A DNA stretch of 40,014 bases from Lewinella cohaerens DSM 23179. GTDB taxonomy: Bacteria > Bacteroidota > Bacteroidia > Chitinophagales > Saprospiraceae. Both the position numbers and the translations under genes were made by a program. Under the pieces are notes generated by a model. That model was not told the origin of the DNA. It saw only the letters and a list, made by a program, of their open reading frames with translations, and searched no databases. The DNA lies in assembly GCF_000379805.1 (NCBI RefSeq), contig NZ_KB903554.1, positions 151,551 to 191,564 on the forward strand, given 5' to 3'. Positions 2,436 to 40,014 of this stretch are shown piece by piece. How positions within the stretch are numbered: position 1 is the first letter of the stretch; each line of letters begins with the position of its first letter.

Positions 2436-4991
2436 TTACCTCTGGCTCCGGAAAAGCAGATCTGCGGCCATCAAAATTTTATTCCGTAAACGAGGAGGAT
2501 AATCCGGCCGTTCTTCCAAGAATTGGTTGACTATTTCTGCGGCAGCTACCGATTGATGACCGCCAAGCGTAGCTGTAATAAATTGTCGCGGGAAGAAGAT
2601 GTCTCCTGTTGCCTGAATCTCTTCCATCATGACCAGACTCTGATGCAGATAATTGATCGAGGAACTAGTACGCAAAGGATGATGAAGGTAACCTACTGCA
2701 GTAACTACCCAAGGTTCCGTCCCACGGTTTTCAAGTAAGGATAGGCTTGCAAAGAAACTGTCTCGTATTTCTTTCTCCGAAGATAATGCGGGTTGAATAA
2801 ACCGAAGCTCCTCCTTTCTATCTTGGTTCTTAGTACGAGCCAATTGAGTTTCGATTAATACTTGAGCTTCATTCGGTAGCCGTAACGCTAATTCTGCGGT
2901 CAAATCAATCGCTTCTGTTTCCGATAAAGCCAGAATAGAGGTAATCTGTTGATTTTCCCAAATCTGTCTCAGCTCAGTACTCGCCTCTTTTGATAGACCA
3001 ATTCGATAATAGGTTCTAAAATAAGCTAACTGGGCGGATGCATCTATTGCCCCTGTATAGGCTTTCTTAAGGGTTGCCTCCAGTGCTAAACCGTATTGTG
3101 CTCGTTCTGTAGGTGTAAAAAACTGCCAAAAAATGGTCTCCGTCAAGCCTAGTAGGTAATTACGATTCAAAGCATCTTCCTCCTTGAGAATTCCTTCTAA
3201 CAATGCCAAATACAAGTCTCCTACCGACAAGCGGTGCCTGAGCATATCTTCATACAAACAAATCCATGCGGCGCCACGCAGGAACGGGTTTGTTAGCTTT
3301 GAAACGTTTTGTAAAAGGTATTTCTGGCTTTGCGCCGTCAAGGGAAAGTAACCGTAAGCCATAGTAGAAGCATGCGGTAAGATCGCCAATGGCTGTTCCG
3401 GCAAGGAACCAAACGTGGCCTGTGGTTCAGCAGACAACCGAACAGGCAACAACGATACAGAATCCTCATAAAACAATGCAATCGCTGTGGATTCCGACCA
3501 ATAACGACCTTCCTTTCCCTCCTGTGCTATACTTAGTGTGTGCTGCCCATCCTTTTCTATGGCTTCGATCGTAAATACAGGCATTCCAGCAGATTTCACC
3601 CATATTTCACTCCAACTTTTTAAATCCTCTTCGGTGCGCTCATCCAGGATATTGATCAAATCATCCCAACTGGCATTACCGTAAGCAAACCGGCGTAAAT
3701 AAACACGCAACCCATCTCGTAGCCCTACCACTCCCATTTGGTCTTCCAGTTGGCGCATAACAACAGGGGCTTTCTGGTAGATAATTCTTCCGTAAAGCGT
3801 GCCCGCCTCCCTTAGGTTATCCAAAGGCTGCTGGATAGGATGACTCCCTCTTGATCGGTCCTCTCCATAAGCAGAAGGCTGATGCCGTAACAAGAAATTA
3901 AGGTCGTGATTAACCGTTGGAAAGCCGGGATTGACAATCTTGGCTGCCATGAAATTAGCAAAAACTTCTTTCAACCATACATCTGAAAACCACTCCATCG
4001 TCACCAGGTCGCCAAACCACATGTGGGCCGTTTCATGGGCGATCAGGGAAGCTCTTCCAATCTGCTGGTTTTGTGTAGCATTTTCGTCTAGCATCAAGCT
4101 TGATTCCCGGTAGAATATTGCTCCTACGTGTTCCATTCCACCGTACTGAAATCCAGGAATTAAAGCAAAGTCAAACTTCTCAAAAGGCAGAGGAATAGCC
4201 GTATATCGTTCCATCCATTCCAGTGCATGTTGGTGCAGGCTAAATATTTCCGGAAGATTGCGCTGTACCTTCTCTTGGTCACTCTCCCGGTATAGCATTC
4301 GCATGGACCTTCCGCCAATGGTAGTCTCTTCTACCTGGAACCGTCCTGCTGTAAAAGCAAACAAATAAGTACTGATCGGGGCTGTTTCTTTAAAGGAAAC
4401 TAATTTACGATCATTCTCCAATTCGGTTTCCAGGATAGCACCATTACTCAATGCTTCCCATTCTGCGGCCACATCAAGGGAGAGTGTAAACTTAGCCTTC
4501 AGGTCTGGTTGGTCAAAACACGGAAATAAGGTTGAGGCACGATCTGGAACTAATAAGGTGTACAAAAAATCTCCTTTCCTATTTAGACTGAGGTCGCCAG
4601 CAATAAAATCAATTTCTACCCTGTTTTCCCCTGCTACCAAAGATGTTCTTGGTAATATTAAGTGCCCTTCCTGAAACTTGCTCTGAGTAACTTCGCCATT
4701 GACCTGTACCTCTTCTATCTGATCAATTAGTGCTTTAAAATCCAATTGAAGATCCCTATCAATAGATTGTAGTTCAAAGCTCGCAACCACCTTTGCCGGG
4801 ATACTATCTGTTTTATTTTCAGGGATTTGAAAATGGAGATCGTAAGTAAGCTCCGAAATGTTTTTCTTGCGTTGTTTGGCCAAAGCTAAACTTACTCCTT
4901 CTTCGATTACGATTTCTGCCGGAGGCTGGTTACAACCTGTAATCATAGCAATGGTAATTAAAAGCCCGCACTTGATGATAAAATTGGTCAT
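2436..4991 (-). CDS. M1 family metallo-aminopeptidase, lipoprotein
   Basis: Zinc aminopeptidase of the M1 (PepN/gluzincin) family, predicted to remove N-terminal residues from peptides in the periplasm or at the outer membrane. Visible motifs are the exopeptidase motif GGMEH at about 284-288 (GAMEN in E. coli PepN) and the zinc motif HETAH at 319-323. The third zinc ligand is Glu342, exactly 19 residues after His323. The usual NEGFA context is KEVFA here. Residues 1-20 form a lipoprotein signal ending in Ile-Thr-Gly-Cys, with Cys20 the likely lipidated residue. The 851-residue length is normal for the family. An ERAP/HEAT-like C-terminal region follows the catalytic domain. The gene stands alone on the minus strand, behind the terminator of the TPR gene. 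Confidence 0.92.
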   Translation of the reverse strand: MTNFIIKCGLLITIAMITGCNQPPAEIVIEEGVSLALAKQRKKNISELTYDLHFQIPENKTDSIPAKVVASFELQSIDRDLQLDFKALIDQIEEVQVNGEVTQSKFQEGHLILPRTSLVAGENRVEIDFIAGDLSLNRKGDFLYTLLVPDRASTLFPCFDQPDLKAKFTLSLDVAAEWEALSNGAILETELENDRKLVSFKETAPISTYLFAFTAGRFQVEETTIGGRSMRMLYRESDQEKVQRNLPEIFSLHQHALEWMERYTAIPLPFEKFDFALIPGFQYGGMEHVGAIFYRESSLMLDENATQNQQIGRASLIAHETAHMWFGDLVTMEWFSDVWLKEVFANFMAAKIVNPGFPTVNHDLNFLLRHQPSAYGEDRSRGSHPIQQPLDNLREAGTLYGRIIYQKAPVVMRQLEDQMGVVGLRDGLRVYLRRFAYGNASWDDLINILDERTEEDLKSWSEIWVKSAGMPVFTIEAIEKDGQHTLSIAQEGKEGRYWSESTAIALFYEDSVSLLPVRLSAEPQATFGSLPEQPLAILPHASTMAYGYFPLTAQSQKYLLQNVSKLTNPFLRGAAWICLYEDMLRHRLSVGDLYLALLEGILKEEDALNRNYLLGLTETIFWQFFTPTERAQYGLALEATLKKAYTGAIDASAQLAYFRTYYRIGLSKEASTELRQIWENQQITSILALSETEAIDLTAELALRLPNEAQVLIETQLARTKNQDRKEELRFIQPALSSEKEIRDSFFASLSLLENRGTEPWVVTAVGYLHHPLRTSSSINYLHQSLVMMEEIQATGDIFFPRQFITATLGGHQSVAAAEIVNQFLEERPDYPPRLRNKILMAADLLFRSQR

Positions 4992-6564: not shown

Positions 6565-9120
6565 TTATTCTTCTTCCTCGCTTTCCTCTTCACGAGCCAC
6601 TACTGTAACGTCAGCAATTTCGTCTTTAGCATCCAGACGAATCACTTTTACGCCTTGAGTAGCACGCCCCATTACGCGAATATCATCAGCACGCATTCGG
6701 ATAACAACACCAGATTTGCTGGTAATCATAAGGTCATTATCATCCTTTACGGCTTTGATCGTGACAACGGCACCGGTTTTCTTCGTCACACTCATGGTGC
6801 GAACCCCCTTGCCACCTCTGTTGGTTAGACGATATTCGTTGAAGTCAGTGCGTTTACCCATTCCTTTCTCGGAAATAACCATAACAGAAATGTCCTCGTC
6901 AGTAGCATCGATACAGATCATACCCACAACTTTATCGGACTCATCTGCTAAAGAAACACCCCGTACTCCGGCTGCGGTACGCCCCATTGGTCGAACTTTT
7001 GATTCTTCGAAGTGAATAGCATTTCCTGAACGTGTCGCAAGGAATACGTGACTATCACCTGTTGTTAGGCGAGCTTCCAAGAGTTGGTCACCATCATTGA
7101 TGGTGATGGCATTGATACCTCCTACACGAGGTCGAGAATATGCTTCTACGAGGGTCTTCTTCACCACACCATTCCTGGTACAGAACATAATGTAGTGGTT
7201 CTTCAGGAATTCTTCATCAGTCAGGTCTTTCACAATGATGTAAGCCTTGACACTATCCTCTTTAGGTATTGCCAGAATATTCTGGATCACTCTACCACCA
7301 GAATTTTTCGAAGCTTCCGGGATTTCGAATATACGTATCCAATGACAACGCCCTTGCTCTGTAAATAGCATCAGGTAATTGTGATTGGTAGCGCCAAACA
7401 TGTGTTCGACAAAGTCAGTATCTCGGGTTCTGCTTCCTTGGCTACCTCGCCCACCGCGGCTCTGTATCTTGTACTCCGACATCGGCGTACGTTTGATATA
7501 CCCCAGGTGGCTAATTGTTACAACTACTTCTTCATCCTTGATAAGGTCTTCGATAGAAATATCGCCAGCTTCCAGGCTAATTTCTGAGCGACGCTCATCT
7601 CCATAACGTTCTTTAATATCACGGAGTTCTTCCTTGATGATATCACGCTGCATCTCTTCACTTGCCAATATCGCCCGCAAGTGGTCAATCAATGCCTTGA
7701 TTTCATTGTATTCGTCCTTGATCTTATCCCGTTCAAGTCCAGTCAACTTCTGAAGTCGCATTTCCAAAATTGCTTTGGCTTGCTGCTCAGAAAGGACATT
7801 GCCTTCGAGTACAATAAGATCACCCGTTTGTACCTCTTGCACCAGGTCTCCGAACTTCTTCCAGAAAGCATCCTTGTCATCGATGAAATCTCCATTGATT
7901 AAGCCCTGCTTGGCTTCATCAGGCGTCGTAGACCTACGGATCAAGGCAATAACTTCATCAAGATAATCAAGGGCAATCAGTAAGCCTACAAGAATATGAG
8001 CTCGGCTTAATGCCTTGTTTAGGTCATATATTGTACGGCGAACGATAACCTCGATTCGGAACTTGATAAACTCAACGATAATATCCTTGAGGTTCAAGAC
8101 GACCGGGCGGCCATCTACCAATGCGATATTGTTGACACCATAGCTGGTTTGTAGTGGGGTATACTTGTAAAGTTTACTCAACACCACAGAAGCCATTGCA
8201 TCTCGCTTTATTTCGATTACAATGCGTAAGCCATCACGATCTGATTCATCGCGTACATCACTGATACCATCCACTCTATCGCCAACAAGTTCGGCAATTT
8301 TGGTAACCAAGGTCGCTTTATTAACCTGGTAAGGGATTTCAGAAATGATGATGGTTTCACGATCTCTATTGTCCGTGATGATTTCTGCTTTACCACGTAC
8401 AACAACCCGACCTCTACCGGTATGGAAGGCATCTTTGATACCTTGGTAATCAAAAATGATCCCGCCAGTAGGAAAATCAGGTGCTTTGATGAAATTCATC
8501 AATTCATCAATCGTGATTTCCGGGTTTTCAATGGTTGCAACAACCCCGTCAATGACCTCAGTGAGGTTATGAGGCAACATGTTGGTAGCCATACCTACCG
8601 CAATACCTGATGCTCCATTAATAAGCAGGTTAGGGATTCTTGCGGGTAAGACAGTTGGCTCTTTCAACGTATCATCGAAGTTGAAAGCAAAATCGACGGT
8701 ATCTTTGCCAATGTCTGCTAACAGTTCATCGCTGATTCGGCGTAGGCGGGCCTCCGTATAACGCATTGCGGCCGGGCTATCGCCGTCCATGCTACCGAAG
8801 TTACCTTGTCCATCTACTAATGGATACCGCAAGGACCAGTCCTGAGCCATCCTCACCATCGTGTCATAGACAGAAGAGTCTCCGTGAGGGTGATATTTAC
8901 CCAGAACCTCCCCGACAATACGGGCGGATTTCTTGTGAGATTTATTATAAGCCAGTCCCAAGTCTGACATACCGTATAAAACACGGCGATGAACAGGTTT
9001 GAGGCCATCCCTTACATCGGGTAGGGCACGAGAAACAATCACCGACATAGAATAATCTATGTAGGCAGATTTCATCTGTTCCTCAATATTAACGGGGATA
9101 ATTCGCTGATTAGAAGACAT
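6565..9120 (-). CDS. gyrA: DNA gyrase subunit A
   Basis: The breakage-reunion subunit of DNA gyrase, which introduces negative supercoils with GyrB. The catalytic tyrosine is Tyr121 in '[10 protein letters not shown]'. The quinolone-resistance region reads '[17 protein letters not shown]', with Ser82 and Asp86 at the positions of E. coli Ser83 and Asp87, the susceptible residues. A GyrA-box-like sequence QSRGGRG (QRRGGKG in E. coli) near residue 550 and the following beta-pinwheel repeats favour GyrA over ParC. The 851-residue length is typical, and the C-terminus is a Glu-rich acidic tail. It is transcribed divergently from ubiE; a TATCTTTG element lies about 95 bp upstream of the start. Confidence 0.96.
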
Positions 9121-29394: not shown

Positions 29395-30462
29395 TCAAAC
29401 CTCTTCTGCAAACCGCCTTAACAACTTGATCCGCTCAAACTCCGAAAGGCAAAACTCAAGATCGGCTGCACTCAGTTTACGGTTGGCAGGCATGTCTTCC
29501 TGAATGGATACAGGGTCTTTACTTCGTTTCGTGCCGTCTTCCGTGACGAGGGTAAACAGCACCTCTAAGGGCAGGCCTTCCGGATTTTTGACACCGCGCT
29601 TTTTCAAACCAGCTTCGATGTCCTGCATTTGTTCGTCCAGAAATTCAGAAAGCACATTTTTCATTGGCCCCACAGCATCTACCAATTCCTCATCAAAGGT
29701 CACCTGCTCTGGTTGTTGATTGCCTTGGCGATCAAGATCGCGCCGCCAGAGACGATCGAGGTACACCTGAAGGTTGGTCAGGTCAATGCCTTCGCGTGGA
29801 CTTCTGAGGTTATTCAGAATCATGCCCGTGGTTTCTCTGGGCTCCTTTACTTCGATCTTACCGTAGCGGCAAGTGCCCAAGACGACTTTGCTAAGATTGT
29901 GATCATTCATCTTCTCAATCCGCAAACGGTTATCAAAGAGTGGAGGGACCACTTTCTCAAATTCCGACAGGTATGCAATGTATTCTTCTCGGATGATCAG
30001 CAGGATTTTACATTGCAAACCCGCCTGCAGGAGGTTACTGATGGATTGGTGAAACTGCTGCTGCTCGGCCTCCGTTCCCATGATATAGAGTTCTTCAAAC
30101 TGGTCGAAGATCAGGTATACCGGGCGGTAAGTTTCCAAATAGAGGTCTTTTACGCGGTGCCGTAACGGCGTATCGTCCTCCCACTGGGTGCTGGTATGCT
30201 TCCCAATTTCTCGCAAGAGCGATCGGTTGAGGTCACTGCCCCTGCGAATGAAAATTGGCAGCCAATCCGTCTTCTGAAAGCGGTTCGCCAAGCCACAATT
30301 GACCAGACTGGTCTTCCCCGTTCCCGAAGCACCGTACAACAACACCAAACCCGATGCGTGTACCGCATTAAAAAGCTGGGCTGTTTCTTTATTGCGACCG
30401 AAAAAGCGGTCTTTGTCCTCCTTGTCGTAGGAGTCGAGGAATTTGAATGGATTCGTCATCAT
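29395..30462 (-). CDS. nSTAND1-type P-loop NTPase, stand-alone
   Basis: A STAND-class NTPase module of 355 residues, expected to switch an effector on through nucleotide-dependent oligomerisation. It opens with the family-like 'NPFKFLDSYDKEDKDRFFGR' (4-23). Walker A GASGTGKTS is at 44-52 and Walker B VYLIFDQFEE at 115-124, followed by LLIIREEY (154-161) and a helical C-terminal winged-helix-like region. It stops at 'IKLLRRFAEEV', exactly where relatives continue into a 'YELSHDTLA' linker, TM helix and sensor repeats. Those parts are encoded by the upstream WD40 genes instead. The start codon overlaps the CHAT stop by one base (TAATG), indicating coupled translation. No TM helix or sensor domain is present. 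Confidence 0.85.
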   Translation of the reverse strand: MMTNPFKFLDSYDKEDKDRFFGRNKETAQLFNAVHASGLVLLYGASGTGKTSLVNCGLANRFQKTDWLPIFIRRGSDLNRSLLREIGKHTSTQWEDDTPLRHRVKDLYLETYRPVYLIFDQFEELYIMGTEAEQQQFHQSISNLLQAGLQCKILLIIREEYIAYLSEFEKVVPPLFDNRLRIEKMNDHNLSKVVLGTCRYGKIEVKEPRETTGMILNNLRSPREGIDLTNLQVYLDRLWRRDLDRQGNQQPEQVTFDEELVDAVGPMKNVLSEFLDEQMQDIEAGLKKRGVKNPEGLPLEVLFTLVTEDGTKRSKDPVSIQEDMPANRKLSAADLEFCLSEFERIKLLRRFAEEV

Positions 30463-32330
30463 TACGCCAGGTCGTTTTTGCAGAGGAGGTACTGATCGTA
30501 CAATATTTGAAATACTTTCGGGCTGTCATCGCTGCCGGTATCGGCATCAAGGCCAAAGTCGAGGCCAAAGTCATCACCAAAGTCGTCGTCTTTGAGGTTG
30601 CGGCCTTCCGTAAAATCCTCCTGCGTCATATTGGTATGAATTTGGTCATCTTCATTGTTCAGCGCATGGAAAAAGCTGTGATCAACGGCCAGGTAGGTCA
30701 ATTGATTGTCGGCCTCCCAGCCCATCAGGAAAATGTGCGCGAGACGATCCTGCTCCGTGGTTTCGCTTTTCTTGACTTTCACAAAAGTGTTCTTGTCGAT
30801 GAGGAAAGGGGAAAGATTCAGCGACTTATCCAGGTGTTTTTCGTTGGATACCAGAATGACCGAAGAACTATCGGAATAGTTTTCCTTACGGCGGTATTCC
30901 TGATCCTGGTACAGGTTTAAGCCCGTGCCCTGGGTGGCATTCAGTGGCCCCATATCCAGCTCGTACGCCAGGGGCTCAAATCGCGGCCGATTGATGGACA
31001 CATTGCGTACCGTGAGTAGACGATAACGAGCCAGGAAGGCCGCGGCGCGCAGGACGATGGAAGTCGCCTGTTCTGTTTTCACACACAACTTATCCAGATC
31101 AGCAGTAGGTGGGCTGGTCTGCAACTCTCTCCGTAATTTTTCTAAAAAGCTATGAGCTTTAGCCAAGGGACTTTCTGCATTTTCCAGATCAGTCGCCAGC
31201 ATTTCCAACTCGCCGATAAAGGGCATTCCTATTCCGACGATTTTATCGTACAAGGCAGGAATTTGTCCTAGAAAATCGAAGTTGGCAAAAGCAGATTTCT
31301 GTTGCTCTAGCTGCGGCCATTTGGCTTCGTGAATTGTTCTGCGTGATTGCTCCCACAGATCAGACACCAAAATGTAGTACAACATCTGACTGGTGATCAG
31401 GTAAGTACTCACCAAATGTTCCAGTCGCTCTACGTTTGGTTTATCATAAAAGCGCAGCAAGCGAATTTGCGAACCAATTGGCCATGGAAAATTCTCAATT
31501 ACCAGCCAAGGGAAGTGCTTCGAGTCTTTTTTGATGACCTCCTCCCCTCTTTTCTCCACCATCTGGTCGTAAATATCGGGGTTGTATTTACACATCTCGT
31601 CCAGCACCAACACGATGTAGCGGTTAGCTGTGAAGCTGCTCCCAATGTACTGGATCATATCTTGCGGCAAGCCTACTGGTCGAAAAAATGGCAGCTTCCA
31701 ACTCAGAATTTCGGTCTTCCGAGCTTCCTGCACGTACAGGCCCCAGGGCATGTCCATACTGTTCTCTTGTTCAGCTGCGCCTACCCATGAGGCATCGCGC
31801 ATCACCACTTCCACGCTCTTACTGAATTTGGTTTCCAGATAAGCCTGCGCCATTTTGAATGCCTGCTCTATGGTCCGGCGATTGGCCAGCGCTTCGTAAA
31901 ATTGCTGGCTAAACTCCATAGCTTTGCGGTCTTCGATGGGTACGGCTGTAGCGATCACCGCTGGCACGCCCGCTGCCAACAGCGTCTGCACCTGCCCTTT
32001 GGTGGAACAGCCGTTGAGAAAGACCAGCTGTAGTCCTTCCTGCTGCCCTAGCAACTGAGCCAAGCCTTCCGCGTCCCCACTTCCACCTTCCAAATTTAAC
32101 TGGGTGCCTGCGGCGTGGCCGGCGTAGTGAAAGATGGCTATCCGGTCCTTGTTCTTCGTAAAAGAAGCGAAGATATCCTTGACCTGGGCACTCTCCTCCC
32201 GGAGGAGTTTGAGGTATTCCTTGCGGTCCAGTTCTTCGAGTGCGCCGTACAAGCGCCGGCTCTCCTCCTTGAGGAGGTCCAGGTGCGCGTCTGGGTCGTT
32301 GGCGAAGGTGAGGAAGATGATGGGGGTCAT
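30462..32330 (-). CDS. CHAT-domain caspase-like protease
   Basis: A 622-residue protein with an N-terminal CHAT (caspase/separase-like) cysteine protease domain, residues 1-170. The catalytic His72 lies in 'FHYAGHA' and Cys108 in 'VFLNGCST', each after a hydrophobic strand as in active members. CHAT enzymes act as effectors in bacterial defence and cell-death pathways. Residues 200-520 are a mixed helical domain I do not recognise, and 540-570 hold 'AHIFLMGWEADNQLTYLAVDHSFFH'. The C-terminal tail is strongly acidic with DDFGDDFGLDFGLD repeats (about 583-600). No signal or TM helix is seen, so it is cytoplasmic. Its stop overlaps the NTPase start, and a 113-bp gap with repeats separates it from the WD40 gene upstream. 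Confidence 0.87.
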   Translation of the reverse strand: MTPIIFLTFANDPDAHLDLLKEESRRLYGALEELDRKEYLKLLREESAQVKDIFASFTKNKDRIAIFHYAGHAAGTQLNLEGGSGDAEGLAQLLGQQEGLQLVFLNGCSTKGQVQTLLAAGVPAVIATAVPIEDRKAMEFSQQFYEALANRRTIEQAFKMAQAYLETKFSKSVEVVMRDASWVGAAEQENSMDMPWGLYVQEARKTEILSWKLPFFRPVGLPQDMIQYIGSSFTANRYIVLVLDEMCKYNPDIYDQMVEKRGEEVIKKDSKHFPWLVIENFPWPIGSQIRLLRFYDKPNVERLEHLVSTYLITSQMLYYILVSDLWEQSRRTIHEAKWPQLEQQKSAFANFDFLGQIPALYDKIVGIGMPFIGELEMLATDLENAESPLAKAHSFLEKLRRELQTSPPTADLDKLCVKTEQATSIVLRAAAFLARYRLLTVRNVSINRPRFEPLAYELDMGPLNATQGTGLNLYQDQEYRRKENYSDSSSVILVSNEKHLDKSLNLSPFLIDKNTFVKVKKSETTEQDRLAHIFLMGWEADNQLTYLAVDHSFFHALNNEDDQIHTNMTQEDFTEGRNLKDDDFGDDFGLDFGLDADTGSDDSPKVFQILYDQYLLCKNDLA

Positions 32331-32355
32331 GGATTTACTGGTTTGTTGGTTTTAC

Positions 32356-32426
32356 TGGTTTGTTCGTTGGATGGTTTGCTGGTCCGTATTGTTTTCGTTG
32401 CCGTTGAGATGCATTGCAATGCGTCT
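32356..32426. repeat. Repeats between the WD40 and CHAT genes
   Basis: Positions 32356-32377 are the right copy of the 22-bp inverted repeat. Positions 32407-32426 form a 20-bp palindrome around GCATTGCAATGC with one G:T pair. The 14-mer at 32387-32400 recurs at 32457-32470 in the end of the WD40 gene. This leader could also control CHAT expression. Confidence 0.5.
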
Positions 32427-32443
32427 GTACAGCTATGGAGATA

Positions 32444-34993
32444 TCAATCAATGCCATATTGTTTTCGTTGTTCGGGGGTGAGTTCAGGGATGGCAGCTTC
32501 GGTTTTGAGGTAGTTGTAGATGCGTTGGGGAGTGGGCCAGATCTTGGCGGTATCATCATTAGAGGCCGTTACGATGTAATCGCCGTTTGGCGAAAACCGA
32601 GCAGTGGATACCTTCTCTTCATGGCCTCTTAAGGTCGCTAATTTTGTACCGCTCTTATTCCAAATTTTTGCGGTGCCATCCCCGGAGGCCGTTACAACAT
32701 ATCGGCCATCAGGTGAAAATTGAGCATTGTAAACTTTCTCTTCATGGCCTCTTAGGGTCGCTAATTCCATGCCGTTCTTATTCCATATTTTTGCCGTACC
32801 ATCGATAGATGCCGTCACGATGTACTCACCGTCAGGTGAAAAACAGGCAGAACGAACATAATCCTGATGACCTGATAAGGTTAATAATTCTACGCCACTT
32901 GCATCTTGCACAGTAACCAGTTTAGGTGAAGAGTTTTTTACCAAATATTGCCGGTCATACGGTAAATGATTCGAAGTACCGGTAACGGTAATATCTTGAT
33001 CGCTGGCGAAAGTGGCTAAAAGCCTACCCGCTTTATCCCACAGTTTTGTGCCGGAATGCGCGCTCGTTAAAATCTGTTCTCCGTCAATCGAAAATTGGGC
33101 AGAGCGAAGATTGAATTGATCTTCTAAGACTGTTGTCAACTCTGCACCGTTCGTGCTCCATAGTTTAGCGTGACCATCATAGGCCCCGGTTAGTATGTAA
33201 GTACCGTCAGGCGAAAAATCAGCGGACCCAATAGCACCGGTATGGCCTATCAAAGTCATCAATTCAATACCGTCTATACTCCATACTTTCACCTCACCAT
33301 TGTTCATACCCGTTATTACATGCTTTGCGTCGGGGGAAAACCCCGCTGATAGAATCCCTAAATTAGGGACTGAAAAGGTTACAAGCTCGGTGCCTTCTTT
33401 ACTCCATAACTTCGCAATATCGAATTCAGACACTGTCAATATGTAGTTACCATCAGGTGAAAACTGGGCAGACAGGAGCTTATCCCCACTAGATAGATTC
33501 CAGGACTCCGAGCCATCTTTTCTCCATAAGTTTGCACTACCACTGTAAGATTCTAAGAGGATATACTCACCGTCAGATGAAAATCGCGCCGAAGAAAGTG
33601 GAGTCGTATACCCTTTCAGGGTATTTAATTCTGCACCACTTTGATCCCACAGTTTGGCACTGCCATCCGTAGAGGCTGTAACAATATATTCACCATCGGG
33701 AGAAAAGTGTACAAAAGTAAGCGAAGCATTATGTCCCGCCAGGGTATTTAATTCTACGCCATTTTTATTCCACAATTTGGCAGTACCGTCATCAAATGCC
33801 GTCACGATGTACTCACCGTCGGGGGAAAAATCTGCATTGGCAACAGTAGTGTTACTCGCCGCCAGGGTACTCAGTTCTGCACCATTCTGATTCCATATTT
33901 TGGCGGTGCCATCCCTAGATAAGGTCAAGATATACTCACCCTGCGGTGAATAGAGGGCTGACCAAATTGGAGCGGAATGAGATAGCGTTGCGAGAGCGGT
34001 GCCGTTCTTGCGCCAGACTTTCGCGCTACCAGCATCTGATATTGTCAACAAATAGGTGCCGTTAGGCGAAAACTGTACAGCGCCCAAACGAGTATGCCCA
34101 GGCAAGACTGCTAGAAGAGTACCGTCCTGGTTTCGTATTTTCGCAGTACCACCATCCGATTTCGTTACTATATAATCCCCTTCAGGGGAGAATTGTGCAG
34201 ACATAGCAGTCCCCGTCTCTTCCGAAAAATCGGCAATTGGTAAGGGTTGTACGGGAGACCCAAATTGAGAATAAAAGATACTGGAAATAGTTTCCTGCAC
34301 ATCTGGTAGTGGCGTCGGTGTTCTTTCCCAAGCAGCCTGGGCTATCCGTAAAGCAATTGCTTTTTGCTCACGAGGCAAAGAACGCGCACGAGCGGCCAAT
34401 GACAAAGCCTCTGCTTGTAGGGTCTGCCGTTCGGCGGCCAAGCGCTGTAGGTTCGCGTCATTCAGTGCGAGCCCCAATTCAATGGCTTTCAGGCTATCGG
34501 CAGCTTTGGCAGCATCTGCTACTTTTAAGGCAATGCTCAGGTTGATAGCCCTTAAACTATCCTGTTGCTTGGCAGTCAAGGCTTCGGCAGCGTGTGCTTG
34601 AGCAGCCGCCGCATTTTCCTGTGCTTCCAGGGCATTAGCTTGGGCACGTTCTTCACTGGCTATCGCCTGCTGGCCATTGATCACCGCCCAGGCTGTTAAG
34701 CCTAATAGCACTGCAATAATAGCGAAGACCAACAGGCGAATATTCCGCCGTTTGGTGGCCAGTTGCTTTTTAGCGTAAAAAATAAAATCTGCCTCCTCCT
34801 GCGAAATATTAATCTGCCCCCAATAAGGCATCACATAATCCACATCATCCTGCGTCAGACGCGCGCCACGCTGCTGATAGGCTTCGTAACGCTCGCGTAC
34901 AAAACGCTCCACCTTCCGCCGCGTACGTGCTTCGGTACTGGCCTTTTCAAAGACCTGGCGGGCGATGGTATCGTGGGAAAGTTCGTAAGGCAT
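32444..34993 (-). CDS. TM-anchored WD40 protein with 14 blades and nSTAND1 linker
   Basis: An 849-residue protein that begins directly with the linker normally C-terminal to an nSTAND1 NTPase: 'YELSHDTIARQVFEKAS' (3-19), 'RRKVERFVRERYEAYQ' and 'LTQDDVDYVMPYW' (47-58). A Lys-Arg-Arg then precedes one TM helix (about 85-106). An Ala/Glu-rich coiled coil (108-200) follows, then about 14 WD40 repeats (235-820) of some 41 residues each, typically 'FSPDGEYIVTAS.DGTAK(I/L)W'. Fourteen suggests two seven-blade propellers. The last three repeats are nearly identical in DNA; one repeat (11th) is degenerate. The C-terminal tail is 'LTPEQRKQYGID'. The positive-inside rule puts the propellers in the periplasm. 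It lies in the train between the exported protein gene and the CHAT gene. Confidence 0.88.
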   Translation of the reverse strand: MPYELSHDTIARQVFEKASTEARTRRKVERFVRERYEAYQQRGARLTQDDVDYVMPYWGQINISQEEADFIFYAKKQLATKRRNIRLLVFAIIAVLLGLTAWAVINGQQAIASEERAQANALEAQENAAAAQAHAAEALTAKQQDSLRAINLSIALKVADAAKAADSLKAIELGLALNDANLQRLAAERQTLQAEALSLAARARSLPREQKAIALRIAQAAWERTPTPLPDVQETISSIFYSQFGSPVQPLPIADFSEETGTAMSAQFSPEGDYIVTKSDGGTAKIRNQDGTLLAVLPGHTRLGAVQFSPNGTYLLTISDAGSAKVWRKNGTALATLSHSAPIWSALYSPQGEYILTLSRDGTAKIWNQNGAELSTLAASNTTVANADFSPDGEYIVTAFDDGTAKLWNKNGVELNTLAGHNASLTFVHFSPDGEYIVTASTDGSAKLWDQSGAELNTLKGYTTPLSSARFSSDGEYILLESYSGSANLWRKDGSESWNLSSGDKLLSAQFSPDGNYILTVSEFDIAKLWSKEGTELVTFSVPNLGILSAGFSPDAKHVITGMNNGEVKVWSIDGIELMTLIGHTGAIGSADFSPDGTYILTGAYDGHAKLWSTNGAELTTVLEDQFNLRSAQFSIDGEQILTSAHSGTKLWDKAGRLLATFASDQDITVTGTSNHLPYDRQYLVKNSSPKLVTVQDASGVELLTLSGHQDYVRSACFSPDGEYIVTASIDGTAKIWNKNGMELATLRGHEEKVYNAQFSPDGRYVVTASGDGTAKIWNKSGTKLATLRGHEEKVSTARFSPNGDYIVTASNDDTAKIWPTPQRIYNYLKTEAAIPELTPEQRKQYGID

Positions 34994-35080
34994 GGATCAA
35001 CAATGGGTTTAAGGGTTACATGCTTGGTAAAGTTACAATTGCTGAACCACTTCACTACAACAGCAATTATGTGTTTTCAC

Positions 35081-36385
35081 TTATTCATTTAACTTACTCC
35101 TGAAATCTCGCTCAACAGCCATTACAGCATCATAATACGGAGCTTTGACGCGATCTAAGGCGTATGGCAACTTCGGATTTTCCGTCAGGTTACTGAGAAG
35201 AACGGTACTTACGCGCAAGTATTCGGAAACGACCATCAACTGGCTATACTTTGCCGTATTTCCTGAAGCACTCAGGATGGTACCGAGTCCATCTACCGCC
35301 GCTGTTTGCCAAGTCACTAGTTGCGTTTTTTGGTCAATCACCCAAGCAAACAAACTAGCTTCTTCCGGACTCAAAAAGGCACGACATGCGTCTCTCTGTG
35401 TCACCAATACGGAGAGTGAACTCTTTATTTCGGGCAAATTGGTATTAATTTGCTGACGCCGAGCGCCCAATATTCGCTTATAAGTAAAGGGTATTGAGGC
35501 ATTATTCATCATCGGCATCACTTCTTGAATCTGACGGGCATTTAGTTTAGTGGCCTTCGCCGAAGGGTGCTGCCGATTATAGACCATCCTCATTTCTGTT
35601 TCCACCATCGCTGAGATATCCAGATAGACATCCGTAACCACCTTCTTGACATCTATCGTTTGATCAGGATGAATGATTGCGCTAGAGGGCGCACCATAGG
35701 AATACACCTCTTCACTGGTGCCATTATAAAAGGCCAAACGGTACAGCCTATTAAGCGACTGGCTATTTTTAAAAGTAGTACTGTAACGGGTGTCAGGAGC
35801 TGTACGGGTACGTCGGGGAAACCTTAAGTAACGAGGATTCTCGCGGATATTAAACTCCCCTAAAACATCGTGGCGGACAATGGGGTACCAAGGCGGCACC
35901 GAAACACTGCCTGTGCCGGCCCTGGGGTTAGCCATAACACGATCACTGCCCGGTGCTGCAGGACGGCCACGCCCTCCAAGAGGAGACTGACGAACAGGTG
36001 GTTCTGATGCTGATTGAGCATTTATGGCCGTATAAGTTTTCCATAAAAGGTTGTTTTGCAAGGCTTCTAAGTCTTCTAGAAAGAAGAATATGTTTAAGTC
36101 TTGATAAGGCACCCACGTACCGGGATCTCTGGTGTAATTCCGCATACTCATGGCCAGTGATCTTGAAAAGGTAATTTCAGGCATCATCCGAATGGAATCG
36201 GCTTTCAAAAAATTGAGCCACCAATTTCGGTTAGAAATAGTTTGATTCAATCCTCGACTGGCATCCATCGTGGTAGCGACATCTTCACCTCCCAGGTCGA
36301 GGGTATCCTTAACCGTTGTCTGAGCACTTAGTTGGGGGGCTAAAAAGCAGCATGTGAGGGCGAATAAAAGGAATAGGTGTTTCAT
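35081..36385 (-). CDS. Exported protein of unknown function in the STAND locus
   Basis: A 434-residue protein that I do not recognise. It has a clear Sec signal (core about 4-16, cleavage after Leu-Ser-Ala near 21). A Pro/Gly/Arg-rich low-complexity segment follows near 130-160, and the second half is mostly helical, including 'LSPEEASLFAWVIDQKTQL' and a C-terminal 'YYDAVMAVERDFRSKL'. The helical end resembles, in pattern though weakly in identity, the lipoprotein encoded at 38074-39327, which also sits directly before a TM-WD40 gene. It is 33 bp after the short WD40 gene and 87 bp before the long one. It could be a periplasmic partner of the propellers. Confidence 0.7.
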   Translation of the reverse strand: MKHLFLLFALTCCFLAPQLSAQTTVKDTLDLGGEDVATTMDASRGLNQTISNRNWWLNFLKADSIRMMPEITFSRSLAMSMRNYTRDPGTWVPYQDLNIFFFLEDLEALQNNLLWKTYTAINAQSASEPPVRQSPLGGRGRPAAPGSDRVMANPRAGTGSVSVPPWYPIVRHDVLGEFNIRENPRYLRFPRRTRTAPDTRYSTTFKNSQSLNRLYRLAFYNGTSEEVYSYGAPSSAIIHPDQTIDVKKVVTDVYLDISAMVETEMRMVYNRQHPSAKATKLNARQIQEVMPMMNNASIPFTYKRILGARRQQINTNLPEIKSSLSVLVTQRDACRAFLSPEEASLFAWVIDQKTQLVTWQTAAVDGLGTILSASGNTAKYSQLMVVSEYLRVSTVLLSNLTENPKLPYALDRVKAPYYDAVMAVERDFRSKLNE

Positions 36386-36418
36386 GAAAATGGTTTTAGA
36401 GAAATCTAAAAAACAAAA

Positions 36419-38047
36419 CTATTTCAACTGGTAATATGCTTGTTCTTCTGGTGAAAACGGATGTAACCTCGTCTGATAATACTGAATTAGCTGCTGCTCA
36501 CTCAATGCTTTTTTATCCGCTACATAATCAAAATCAAATTTCCAAAGTAACGCCTGGTTATTGCCTCCAGCCGATAGAAAGTGGACGTTATTAGGAGCAT
36601 ATACGCCCCACAAGATCCGATTGTTAAAGCGAAAAAGCTCTTGATTTTGTTCCATCAAGCTATCGACGACCTGCTGGACAAGAGTTTCGTTGTTATCACT
36701 AGCTCCCACCAAGTACCTCCCGTTATCGCTCATAATGGCAAACTGTGCTTTCCCTTTTGGCAGCCATTGCAAGTCGAGATCGGATTGGGTTGATCCCGTA
36801 TTCCAAACGTAGACGATATTCCTATCCCTGCTAATAGAAACAATTTTCTCTGGCATCCTACTTGGTACAAACTTTGACTGAATAGGCTGGTAAGCACGGA
36901 ACAAAAGGGATGTTCTGGTGCGAAGCGTATCACCGTTGTTCGCTAGCATAAAATCACCGGTAGTCGTACGAAAGACCATCTTGTCGTTGTTCGGGCTGAT
37001 ACTGATCCCAGTGACGGGCCGACCCAACACATTGCGGTAAGCCATTACTTCCTCCCCTACAGCGTTCCAGCGCTTTATTTCGGTCGCTTTACTAGCTGTT
37101 ACAAGGTCCCATCCGGTGTCCACTTGTAAAAAATCGATAGCGGTAACCGGGGCTTGCATACTCACCACAATGGGTTGTTCCGTTGGCTGGCGCAAATCCC
37201 AAACGTACACTTGCTCCTTGGCTATTGCTCCTAACCGGGAGCCATCAGGGCTTACCCGGGCCTTCATGAATTCAATCTGTCCGGTCAGAGGTTGTACTTT
37301 GTTATTGGTTACATTCCATAGCTGTAATTCGCCCCTCCTGCTAAGGCTGACGACACGTTCGTTATCAGGTAAAAGTTCGGCCCAACTAAGCCCCTCCTTG
37401 TACGCTATCTTTTTCAGTATTTCTCTTTTCAAATTAGAGATTCTTACCTCTCCATCCTGTGATGCACTCATAAAGAAGGAGCCATCTCGAGAAAATTGCA
37501 ACGCTACTATCGTATCCTCATGGTGGATACTGCTCACCAGTGGGTTGGCTTGTATTTCCAGCAAGACCTCACGAGCAATTGTTTTGGCATTCTCATCATT
37601 GTCCCACAAGAGGGTTTGCTCAGCCAGCCGAAAGGCTTCTCGGGGACTTCCTTCGTAAAGGGCATAACGAGCGGCCAGGCTTACCCGCATGGATTTGCTT
37701 TCTTGCTCCCGCTGTTCTGCGGCATTGCGCTGACTATTTGCGACAAGTGCCAGTACTCCAAATGCAATACTAATAGTGGTAAGTAAAAACAAGCGCAGGC
37801 GACGACGGCGTTGCAAACGTTGCTTACCCCTCTGCAAAAATACAAGTTCCTCCCCAGAGCTATTGACTTGATCCAGATATGGCCAGACGAAGTCAATATC
37901 ATCCTGGGTAAGGTATACCTGGCGATCATGATACGCCTGATGGCGTTCGCTAATATAGCGCTCCACTTTCCGGCGCGTACGAGCCTCCGTACTGGCCTTT
38001 TCGTACACCTGCTGAGCAATGGTATCATGAGTAAGTTCGTAATGCAT
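36419..38047 (-). CDS. TM-anchored WD40-like protein, paralogue with nSTAND1 linker
   Basis: A 542-residue paralogue of the long WD40 protein. Residues 1-80 match it closely ('YELTHDTIAQQVYEKASTEA', 'RRKVERYISERHQAYH', 'LTQDDIDFVWPY'). An Arg-rich stretch and one TM helix (about 85-104) follow, then a short coiled coil and a helical segment ending near 160. After that come seven or eight diverged WD40-like blades (about 170-500). The tail 'HPFSPEEQAYYQLK' mirrors 'LTPEQRKQYGID'. As in its paralogue, the NTPase that should precede this linker is absent. The cytoplasmic linker may dock the separate NTPase while the propeller senses on the other side of the membrane. It lies 26 bp after the lipoprotein gene. 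Confidence 0.82.
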   Translation of the reverse strand: MHYELTHDTIAQQVYEKASTEARTRRKVERYISERHQAYHDRQVYLTQDDIDFVWPYLDQVNSSGEELVFLQRGKQRLQRRRRLRLFLLTTISIAFGVLALVANSQRNAAEQREQESKSMRVSLAARYALYEGSPREAFRLAEQTLLWDNDENAKTIAREVLLEIQANPLVSSIHHEDTIVALQFSRDGSFFMSASQDGEVRISNLKREILKKIAYKEGLSWAELLPDNERVVSLSRRGELQLWNVTNNKVQPLTGQIEFMKARVSPDGSRLGAIAKEQVYVWDLRQPTEQPIVVSMQAPVTAIDFLQVDTGWDLVTASKATEIKRWNAVGEEVMAYRNVLGRPVTGISISPNNDKMVFRTTTGDFMLANNGDTLRTRTSLLFRAYQPIQSKFVPSRMPEKIVSISRDRNIVYVWNTGSTQSDLDLQWLPKGKAQFAIMSDNGRYLVGASDNNETLVQQVVDSLMEQNQELFRFNNRILWGVYAPNNVHFLSAGGNNQALLWKFDFDYVADKKALSEQQLIQYYQTRLHPFSPEEQAYYQLK

Positions 38048-38073: not shown

Positions 38074-39327
38074 TCAGTTTCTTTTCTTCATTACTTGGGT
38101 ATAATAGTAATCTCTACGCTCGTTGAGAATGGCAGAGGCCATCTTTTTGTATTCCCAGTAATTCTCTTTACTCAGAAGCTGTACCGCAAAATAGGCCTCC
38201 ATCAAACTATTATATGTGTAAGGCTTCTCTATCGCATTAATTGTGCTTACGTACTTTTCCATTGCTTGCTCCACTTGGCGAGCCCCCACCATAAAGCTAT
38301 CGATCATCTCCCTTTCCTTCGGATCCAATCCCGCTTTATTGGTAGTATAAATCGTATTAAAAGCAGCTACTTTTTGGGAGAAACTTGATTGTGTGGCCGA
38401 AAACAGGGGGCTGATGTTTTGAAGGTATTGATCGCTCAGGTCTTCCGGCAAGGGTAAATCCTGTATTTCGGCGATAATTTTATTATACTCCTCTGGTTCC
38501 AAATTTAATTTATACTCGTCTGCACGGCGGGTTGTTCCACTAATAGCATTAAGCTCTGAATAATAAACATTGGTACGTTCTTCCAAAACATTATTGATCC
38601 TCCTTAATAAACCATCCCTCATTTCTTCCTTATAGGGATACAGTTTATTGTAAACGGGGTCAAGAAAATAGGGTTGAAAACGATCATTATTCAACAGCGC
38701 CTCATATACTTTTTTACGTTGAAGTAATGGACGATTTTCAACAACACTTGCTTGGTCAGGTAAACCTGCTATCGGTTTGAAGTAAATAATATTTGGAGCC
38801 CTGTCACTCGGTCCCTCGGCCGTAGAATAAAATTCTCTTACGATGGGGTACCCTAGCTCTTCAAAAGAGTACTCATCTCCATATTTTTTCACCTGAGGAA
38901 ATGTTGGAATGTGCTTATCTGGATACTTGAAAAATAAATTCAATTTAATGAAGTCTTCCAAAAAATCAATCAGGCCCAACTCCTTGTAAAGAACCCTTAC
39001 CGGAGGGGGCTCTTGTCCATAAGGATATATCTGCTGTTCTTTTACTACATTAGACGATTCGTTGCGCTGCTCTACCTTGCCATATTCACTAATCAGTTGA
39101 TTCCAAGCTTCCTCATTTTTTATTTTCACCGGCGGCGGGGCAAGAACAGTACCAGCAACAGATGGCTCCTCTCCACCGCTAAAATTCAAGGCCCCTGAAG
39201 CATCCGGATTTTCAACGGTTTCATCCTGTCCTCCGAGAGTTTCCTTCCCTCCACAGCTTGTCCCAATAAAGGTCAAAGCAAAGGCTAGGCTAATAATTAT
39301 GCCCATTTTGTTAATTAGTGTATTCAT
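38074..39327 (-). CDS. Lipoprotein of unknown function in the STAND locus
   Basis: A 417-residue unknown protein. A frame open from 39366 gives an earlier start, but the ATG at 39327 begins a proper lipoprotein signal ending Phe-Ile-Gly-Thr-Ser-Cys (Cys25). It also forms an ATGA overlap with the stop of the upstream gene, so I chose it. After a linker rich in Gly/Glu/Pro, the mature part is largely helical and charged, with 'VKIKNEEAWNQLISEYGK' early and 'YWEYKKMASAILNERRDYYY' at the end. This C-terminal region is similar in layout to that of the exported protein at 35081-36385. A role as an envelope partner of the adjoining TM-WD40 protein is inferred from position. Confidence 0.72.
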   Translation of the reverse strand: MNTLINKMGIIISLAFALTFIGTSCGGKETLGGQDETVENPDASGALNFSGGEEPSVAGTVLAPPPVKIKNEEAWNQLISEYGKVEQRNESSNVVKEQQIYPYGQEPPPVRVLYKELGLIDFLEDFIKLNLFFKYPDKHIPTFPQVKKYGDEYSFEELGYPIVREFYSTAEGPSDRAPNIIYFKPIAGLPDQASVVENRPLLQRKKVYEALLNNDRFQPYFLDPVYNKLYPYKEEMRDGLLRRINNVLEERTNVYYSELNAISGTTRRADEYKLNLEPEEYNKIIAEIQDLPLPEDLSDQYLQNISPLFSATQSSFSQKVAAFNTIYTTNKAGLDPKEREMIDSFMVGARQVEQAMEKYVSTINAIEKPYTYNSLMEAYFAVQLLSKENYWEYKKMASAILNERRDYYYTQVMKKRN

Positions 39328-40014
39328 GGTTTTAGTGTTTTTACGGTGACCATCGTCGTATACCAATCCGGCACTTTACGACGAACTCGGGAAAGGTTAC
39401 TCCCCCAATTTACGCCACGGTGTTGGATATTACTCAATAAACTATCAAAAGCATTGCTTATTTCCAGCGCAGCACCCGTTCGGGGAACCTTAGCCCGCTG
39501 GAGGCTATTCTGCCACAAATGCATCGGATCAAAAGGGACGGTGCTAACAATCAGCTTGAAGTGATCCTCTACTTCCTTTACTGGCACACCACCTTTGTTG
39601 GGTGGCAAACTAAACGCCAAAAACAAACCTTCCGGATTGGCGCCCCCAGGAAGTTGGATATGGGACCCTGCGTAAATTTCCTTTTGTTCTCGCTTAATTA
39701 TTCGGCCTCCATCCATAAACTCCACGGTTCCCAAATGGGCATCGCTGGCCAGTAGACCGGGATTGATGCCAAAATCTGGCCGCAAATGCAACAAGGCACA
39801 ATACAAAGCTCCTGGATAAGCTTTACGCAATCGAACCCTGAACTTCAACTGGGGATCTGGTTCGCCTTCAGGTGTAGCTTTCAGGACAATATCTTTTTCT
39901 TCGGCATTGACGACCTCTCCCGCAGGGTTAAGAACATCAATGGTCACTAGTCCCTGAGGAATGGAAGCCGGATGATCGTTCCGTAGGGAAAGGGTGCGCT
40001 GCCATTTCCCAAGA
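39324..40014 (-). CDS. C-terminal part of a protein in the STAND locus, cut by the window edge
   Basis: The minus-strand frame is open through the right edge; the first possible start inside is GTG at 39947, but the sequence upstream ('WQRTLSLRNDHPASIPQGLV') reads as coding. The visible 230 residues look beta-rich, with 'KFRVRLRKAYPGALYCALLH', 'IYAGSHIQLPGG' and 'FKLIVSTVPFDPMHLWQ'. I recall similar C-terminal segments in Saprospiria caspase-family proteins, but this is memory and not a search result. If right, the missing N-terminal part would be a second caspase-like protease at the head of the train. The stop forms an ATGA overlap with the lipoprotein gene, so translation is coupled. Confidence 0.55.
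   Translation of the reverse strand, partial: LGKWQRTLSLRNDHPASIPQGLVTIDVLNPAGEVVNAEEKDIVLKATPEGEPDPQLKFRVRLRKAYPGALYCALLHLRPDFGINPGLLASDAHLGTVEFMDGGRIIKREQKEIYAGSHIQLPGGANPEGLFLAFSLPPNKGGVPVKEVEDHFKLIVSTVPFDPMHLWQNSLQRAKVPRTGAALEISNAFDSLLSNIQHRGVNWGSNLSRVRRKVPDWYTTMVTVKTLKP

Follow-up and report, generated by a model that had tools for sequence, protein, structure and literature searches.

The locus described here raises the question of whether an ATPase switch of the STAND class can be distributed over several genes, such that one engine is completed, and read, by several separately encoded sensors. It lies in Lewinella cohaerens DSM 23179 (assembly GCF_000379805.1, genome of 7.3 Mb), within a 40,014-nucleotide stretch of contig NZ_KB903554.1, positions 151,551 to 191,564, which we call the window (G000:C24:151551-191564 in our own numbering of genomes, contigs and loci). 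An earlier note on this DNA had described a CHAT protease, an nSTAND1 NTPase and two transmembrane (TM) WD40 proteins as a conflict protein split into separate genes, with a single NTPase and a single CHAT protein possibly serving alternative sensors. The genes belong to a run on the minus strand that reads, in order of transcription, caspase, lipoprotein-like protein, sensor A, secreted protein, sensor B, CHAT and nSTAND1 NTPase. We find a genuine split that is old and recurrent, that often sets several sensors against one NTPase, and that falls within the ATPase switch itself.

The NTPase gene (29395..30462, minus strand) encodes 355 residues, with a P-loop, GASGTGKTS, at residue 44 and a Walker B motif, LIFDQFEE, at 117. 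Its match to the nSTAND1 profile (PF20703, E=2.1e-33) reaches only position 241 of 379, and the chain ends in ...LLRRFAEEV, as had been noted before. Alignment with fused relatives and a structure model of one of them, from which the fold is taken, place this end directly after the first wing strand (LLRR) of the winged-helix domain (WHD), which is thus predicted to be incomplete. Fused relatives run in one chain from ...RILR through a turn into [YF]E[LI]xHD (for example YELAHD) and a helix; split NTPases finish with ...LLRR and a few residues, and the sensors resume with M-x-[YFIVL]E[LIF]xHD. When the fused homologue L111 is modelled (23 sequences; predicted local distance difference test score, pLDDT, 91.0; predicted template-modelling score 0.77), the wing strands span residues 347-350 and 353-356 and a helix runs from 359. 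The break maps to the turn at 351-352 of this model, and H358-D359 would form the start of the last WHD helix. H358 is the sole invariant histidine in the alignment of fused homologues, the rows of which were picked with a pattern containing HD. Split NTPases do not have the WHD His-Asp, and the six that were aligned share no invariant histidine. Judged by its sequence, the NTPase is therefore without the second strand of the wing and without the conserved His-Asp beyond it. The claim that an HD-containing linker comes directly after the NTPase in fused forms holds, with the break now refined to the turn of the wing, so that the sensor receives a strand as well. With the break inside the wing, what a sensor brings is part of the switch in addition to a linker.

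Since the rows of this alignment, and of one of 19 linkers, had been selected with the HD pattern, the motif was recounted without it, after removal of 11 duplicate loci. Across 93 long NTPase open reading frames (ORFs) taken blind to the motif, the four columns hold E in 92, H in 91, D in 91 and A in 92; the exceptions are the divergent L077 and L084, which is of the split type with its linker on the next gene. For NTPase ORFs longer than 450 residues the motif pattern falls at residues 290-430 in 62 of 63 loci, with positions from 342 to 423 in one of the scans, and alignment still shows HD in the remaining one, L116. Linkers found with a motif-free profile carry ExxHD in 60/60 fused and 56/57 stand-alone cases, the single stand-alone exception (L086) belonging to a second split type described below.

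Both sensors of the window open in this way. Sensor B (32444..34993, minus strand) is a protein of 849 residues, the first 82 of which hold the wing strand, ExxHD and linker (34748..34993, minus strand, beginning MPYELSHDTIA), followed by one TM segment at residues 87-105 (34679..34735, minus strand) and WD40 propellers. Sensor A (36419..38047, minus strand; 542 residues) begins MHYELTHDTIA, again with strand, ExxHD and linker, and has its TM segment at residues 84-102 (37742..37798, minus strand). The shared YELSHD/YELTHD openings reported earlier are thus as described. A TM helix and propellers had also been claimed for both proteins; the helix is found in each, while the propeller is strong in sensor B (PF00400, E=1.6e-97, nine stretches) and weak in sensor A (E=1.2e-7, one stretch). 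Each sensor, then, starts with the wing strand and ExxHD, after which come the linker, a single TM segment and another domain. In 44 of 50 distinct stand-alone linkers the start codon stands exactly two codons before the strand (34 ATG, 7 GTG, 3 TTG). The open frame upstream of the 50 is at most 91 codons long, compared with at least 364 for five fused linkers and 110 for one split of the other type.

One could take the ExxHD start for a relic or a docking tag and suppose that the truncated NTPase works alone with CHAT, as might fit an NTPase gene that is intact and that occurs in one genome without a sensor in cis. We find this improbable: the motif and the placement of the start codon are kept in nearly all stand-alone linkers, the complementary strand ends the NTPase, and a second, independent break point likewise assigns the last part of the WHD to the sensor. 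That second type is seen at six loci (L073, L074, L075, L086, L120 and L124), where a complete NTPase is followed by a second NTPase cut after ...LTxLQxYxxxL; the next gene opens with a winged helix and then a TM stretch, HD being replaced by NN or NS. A related arrangement in G302 (L234, L236) pairs a 249-residue NTPase with a gene on another contig that opens with a winged helix and keeps HD. With either break point, the end of the winged helix lies on the sensor.

The split might instead reflect recent gene breakage or an assembly error, for which the best case is L071 in G182, where the NTPase and linker genes share a frame, with a stop codon and one additional codon between them. We regard the chance of this as practically negligible. 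Gaps between the ORFs of 14 adjacent NTPase-linker pairs range from -4 to 178 nucleotides, with the distance from stop to motif falling in all three frames, and some sensors lie upstream of CHAT or on other contigs. The split form is also present in genomes of one to three contigs, and the ratio of non-synonymous to synonymous substitution rates (dN/dS) of the window NTPase is about 0.03. In a tree of 113 NTPases, 16 of 19 split sequences form one group together with two fused and one of the other type, and three lie near the midpoint root, so that split sequences are both deep and clustered; the starred branches of this tree, which was built by a quick method and has many open forks, require the split label to have changed at least twice. 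Spacing, frames, start codons and few-contig genomes together refute a frameshift or assembly artefact for the family. Among 396 genomes of the order, at least 35 contain an NTPase match at E <= 1e-60, and at least 16 matches of split size (347-387 residues) occur in at least 15 genomes, all of them of the window's family; these counts are lower bounds, because at most the best five candidates per genome were scored.

Genome counts bear on whether one engine serves several sensors. In the 22 distinct genomes reached by our searches we count 29 split NTPases versus 58 stand-alone linkers. Fourteen of the 22 have a surplus of sensors over split NTPases, and none has a deficit; sensors do not, accordingly, each have an NTPase of their own elsewhere, and a scheme of one NTPase per sensor is rejected by this surplus. 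The ratio of NTPases to sensors is 1:2 in G000 (the genome of the window), G173, G210, G302, G459 and G505, 1:3 in G256, G298, G471 and G481, 1:4 in G533, and 1:5 in G303, G447 and G527. G303 and G511, whose coordinates agree, were counted once. Linkers were accepted at E <= 1e-4 in the first set of genomes and E <= 1e-6 in the second, and were sorted into stand-alone and fused by open frame and gene maps; NTPases were accepted at E <= 1e-30, with all first-look candidates scored. An NTPase cut by a contig end in G299 was counted as a second one. We left uncounted a similarly cut NTPase in G301, the pair split at another point in G302, and the linkers that G182, G210 and G299 have of the other split type. 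Some of the 22 genomes also contain fused NTPases.

In some genomes the sensors are moreover unlinked from the engine. In G298 no linker lies within the 20-kb stretches around the CHAT-NTPase pair, and three linkers are found on three other contigs with no NTPase nearby. G447 and G527, of two and three contigs, have four of their five sensors 95 kb and 91 kb from the NTPase, respectively. In G303 a caspase gene follows four clustered sensors. These observations support the proposal of a single NTPase and a single CHAT protein that may serve several TM sensors.

Comparison with the congener G173 indicates how differently the parts evolve. The NTPase and CHAT proteins are 93.5% and 94.1% identical, each with a dN/dS of 0.033; the caspase is 79.2% identical (dN/dS 0.069), the secreted protein 62.5% and sensor A 65.5%. 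Identity for sensor B is 35.8% overall, 75.0% within the linker and 31.3% after residue 110. The dN/dS values are rough, as dS is near or above saturation, and no dS was computable for sensor A. A conserved engine with diverging sensors is the pattern that would be expected of a recognition system. The same comparison bears on the idea that the sensors join the same complex and complement the switch in trans, and are co-subunits of one hetero-oligomer, or a fixed pair, rather than alternatives. Sensors A and B do stand in one run and in the same order in the window and in G173, and in G210 a pair of neighbouring sensors stands behind the NTPase. Yet genomes differ in sensor number, from one to five, sensors are in some cases placed on other contigs, and B has diverged much more than A, which makes co-subunits in our view rather unlikely.

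The CHAT gene (30462..32330, minus strand) overlaps the NTPase gene by one base at a TAATG junction, as had been reported. It encodes 622 residues, with the CHAT domain (PF12770, E=2.1e-11) at approximately residues 1-215 and a C-terminal region of about 400 residues, part of which is also found in non-CHAT proteins of related loci. The predicted catalytic residues named earlier, His72 and Cys108, are present and are invariant in 19 aligned sequences. The closest solved CHAT fold to its model (pLDDT 80), by Foldseek, is SAVED-CHAT 8tl0 (E=2.5e-7). At 78 loci found with split NTPases as queries, the gene just upstream of the NTPase matches the window CHAT or its C-terminal region in 61, of which 41 match the CHAT domain; the upstream gene has no match in 12, and no same-strand gene was picked in five. 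Because CHAT is its own upstream gene at 41 of 78 loci, a separate CHAT is common beside fused NTPase-sensors too, and we reject the idea that relatives usually consist of a single polypeptide. Where the upstream gene lacks CHAT, it may hold EAD11 (matched in the relatives L081 and L097), a guanylate cyclase or a sub-threshold TIR-like domain, or it may consist of nothing but the C-terminal region. At L129, L131, L081, L097 and L153 the N-terminal part of the upstream gene varies and a C-terminal region like that of the window CHAT is retained. No EAD match was found in the proteins of the window locus, the whole caspase included.

A fused counterpart for comparison is present in the genome of the window, as one ORF of 1376 residues arranged CHAT - nSTAND1 - LAHD - TM - WD-like repeats, with FHFAGH at 73, NGC at 117, a P-loop at 291 and TLAHDTLA at 608; its TM stretch and repeats were read by eye. 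Another contig of this genome (G000:C22, L019) carries three large nSTAND1 genes in tandem. In G210 (L069 / L106) a CHAT gene and a fused-type NTPase gene lie directly upstream of the split system.

A TM segment (mean hydropathy above 1.6) is found in 32 of 33 trans-linker proteins, the remaining one reaching 1.48, and by our own rule none of the 33 has a second TM segment further on. Lysine and arginine are commoner on the linker side of the segment in 30 of the 33 (two equal, one fewer). The sensor domain is thus predicted to lie outside, which may point to sensing at the envelope. By Pfam, the C-terminal module is WD40 in both window sensors and in eight of ten further trans-linker proteins scanned; the other two carry leucine-rich repeats (LRR; L241) and Fib_succ_major (L238). 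A second scanned set gave FGE-sulfatase in L114 and sub-threshold carboxypeptidase-regulatory-like matches in L072 and L110, with little or nothing in the other seven. The leucine-rich repeat protein (L241:8796-10403) adjoins a split NTPase, and such repeats are a classic NLR sensor type. FGE/lectin-type modules occur with nSTAND1 elsewhere, according to an extract of Dore et al. 2024 (PMC10907252).

The gene run is longer than first noted, in that a caspase, a lipoprotein and a secreted protein are members of it. The secreted protein (35081..36385, minus strand; 434 residues, with a signal-peptide-like N-terminus) has a homologue at the same place in G173 and three partial homologues in G206. 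The putative lipoprotein (38074..39366, minus strand; 430 residues) has a lipobox-like GTSC, read by eye. Neither has a Pfam match. The window includes the 3' part of the caspase gene (39324..40013, minus strand), which encodes a Peptidase_C14 protein of 757 residues (E=3e-18) and starts outside the window; the whole gene, L014:12875-15148, heads the run. Directly upstream of it are genes identified by eye as a LytTR-type response regulator and a histidine kinase-like protein (L014:15152-16627). Elsewhere in the window two minus-strand ORFs (2436-4991 and 6565-9120), both of 851 residues and possibly duplicated genes, stand on either side of an ORF of 460 residues.

Sensors with a TM segment and a putatively external domain, in some cases next to secreted proteins or lipoproteins, could instead belong to a housekeeping switch for envelope stress or surface sensing, for example in gliding, predation or cell-cell contact, rather than to immunity or cell death; that PADLOC reports no complete system agrees with this. 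What speaks for conflict is the pairing of CHAT with a caspase, the replaceable effectors of relatives (EAD11, cyclase and the sub-threshold TIR match) and the fast divergence of the sensors, features that are typical of conflict systems. A housekeeping role seems to us unlikely, though it is a serious contender, and a function in defence or cell death is plausible.

We consider it moderately probable that the product of the locus is a conflict system of the NLR-like (STAND) kind, transmembrane and multi-subunit, in which the sensors complete the ATPase switch in trans. The N-terminus of a sensor would complete the winged helix, placing its histidine at the ADP like that of the NLR MHD motif, and this contact would hold the ATPase off at the membrane. 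A ligand outside, or damage to the envelope, perhaps via the secreted and lipoprotein partners, may alter the contact and so permit exchange of ADP for ATP and oligomerisation. CHAT, whose C-terminal region perhaps provides the coupling to the ATPase, would then be activated and cleave targets, possibly including the operon's caspase, and the resulting protease cascade might lead to dormancy or death. Under this mechanism one conserved engine reads several faster-evolving sensors. Completion of the switch in trans is the most economical explanation of the split; in this reading the NTPase would form complexes with the sensors and the ExxHD His-Asp would have an MHD-like role. In resting MalT, a STAND protein, ADP is held by a winged-helix histidine in the off state (PMC10427625), and in NRC1 H480 contacts the beta-phosphate of ADP (PMC6713354), according to extracts of these papers. 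By its position in the modelled fold, the ExxHD histidine is a candidate for this ADP-holding residue; if so, every sensor brings an off-switch along. Foldseek matches to the NTPase model include archaeal AAA+/Walker-type ATPases, Cdc6/ORC chains and, at rank 22, a wheat resistosome (E=4.9e-7). A bolder version, to which we give slightly less than an even chance, is an NLR network in which an engine without a WHD His-Asp of its own is joined by up to five interchangeable TM sensors (WD40, LRR or FGE/lectin-like). Each would donate the strand and an MHD-like His-Asp in trans, docking would build and lock the switch, and signals would pass across the envelope to a CHAT-caspase cascade.

Several results weigh against this interpretation. 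On MalT, a profile of the ExxHD wing scored no better than shuffled versions (60% of 300 shuffles attained its best score), the top matches did not include the MalT WHD histidine, and hhalign gave no sensible alignment to the MalT winged helix. The same profile had no match on one bacterial NB-ARC protein, in a scan made without shuffles. Because these comparisons gave nothing, the equation of HD with MHD is argued from position in the fold and not from sequence. The 1376-residue fused ORF of the window genome does not keep the E of ExxHD (TLAHD). NTPases and sensors are equal in number in 8 of the 22 genomes (G182, G206, G299, G300, G301, G304, G305 and G515). The next same-strand gene has a signal-peptide-like start, by a crude rule, for only 13 of 31 sensor genes. 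Co-location with a caspase is only mildly commoner at split than at fused loci (6/20 vs 14/82, with duplicate loci removed from this and the signal-peptide count); the step from CHAT to caspase is plausible because the caspase is in the same run, and is weighed down by the similar co-location at fused loci. Finally, no PADLOC (2023) system fits the locus, which gave weak partial matches and a hit to a generic caspase model only. Two further searches added little: a fused profile run against the PDB with hmmsearch gave one significant match, 2fna, in the P-loop region only, the others being weak, and among at most the best 16 candidates per genome in 148 genomes of the phylum a single NB-ARC protein was found.

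How the system relates to known ones is set out here from extracts of the papers cited. The nSTAND1 family was named in Kaur et al. 2021 (PMC8195603), and modular conflict systems are treated in Kaur 2020 (PMC7159879) and Dore et al. 2024 (PMC10907252); in the extracts of these three papers a STAND protein broken in the WHD is not mentioned. Among the papers listed by our searches of an open-licence PMC library, none describes in its title or abstract opening a split nSTAND1 or an MHD supplied in trans. EAD-type nSTAND1 systems (PMC8195603, in extract) resemble the present one in PF20703, in coupling to effector modules and in EAD11, found in two of the relatives tested; they differ in that here the NTPase is broken inside the WHD, with strand, ExxHD, TM segment and sensor on separate genes, often several. 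MalT of E. coli (PMC10427625) is likewise held off by ADP at a WHD histidine and is inhibited by separate proteins, as far as the extract goes, but it is a single chain with its sensor in cis, and equivalence of the histidines has no sequence support. LypABC, a CARD-NLR-like system, is a tripartite bacterial protease-ATPase lysis system; its effectors are trypsin-type, and the extract of PMC13236601 makes no mention of a WHD split. SAVED-CHAT, the closest solved CHAT fold, acts through a cascade of proteolytic activity (PMC11229360, in extract).

Activation differs in that SAVED-CHAT responds to a cyclic nucleotide via SAVED and not to a STAND ATPase; it is reported to act on a caspase. Apaf-1, the NLR resistosomes and the inflammasomes share with the present system the NOD switch, WD40 or LRR sensors, caspase-like effectors and the succession of wing, His and Asp. 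In Apaf-1 and the NLRs both the MHD histidine and the sensor are in cis, whereas here His-Asp and sensor are encoded in trans and a TM segment is part of the sensor. The coupling of sensor to switch in STAND proteins and NLRs is hard to dissect within one chain; in this family engine and sensor part company at the switch, so that purified components can be used to test how they are coupled. The system would be a membrane-spanning form of an NLR-like system, and a bacterial counterpart of the sensor-helper networks of plants, in which one conserved helper serves diversifying sensors.

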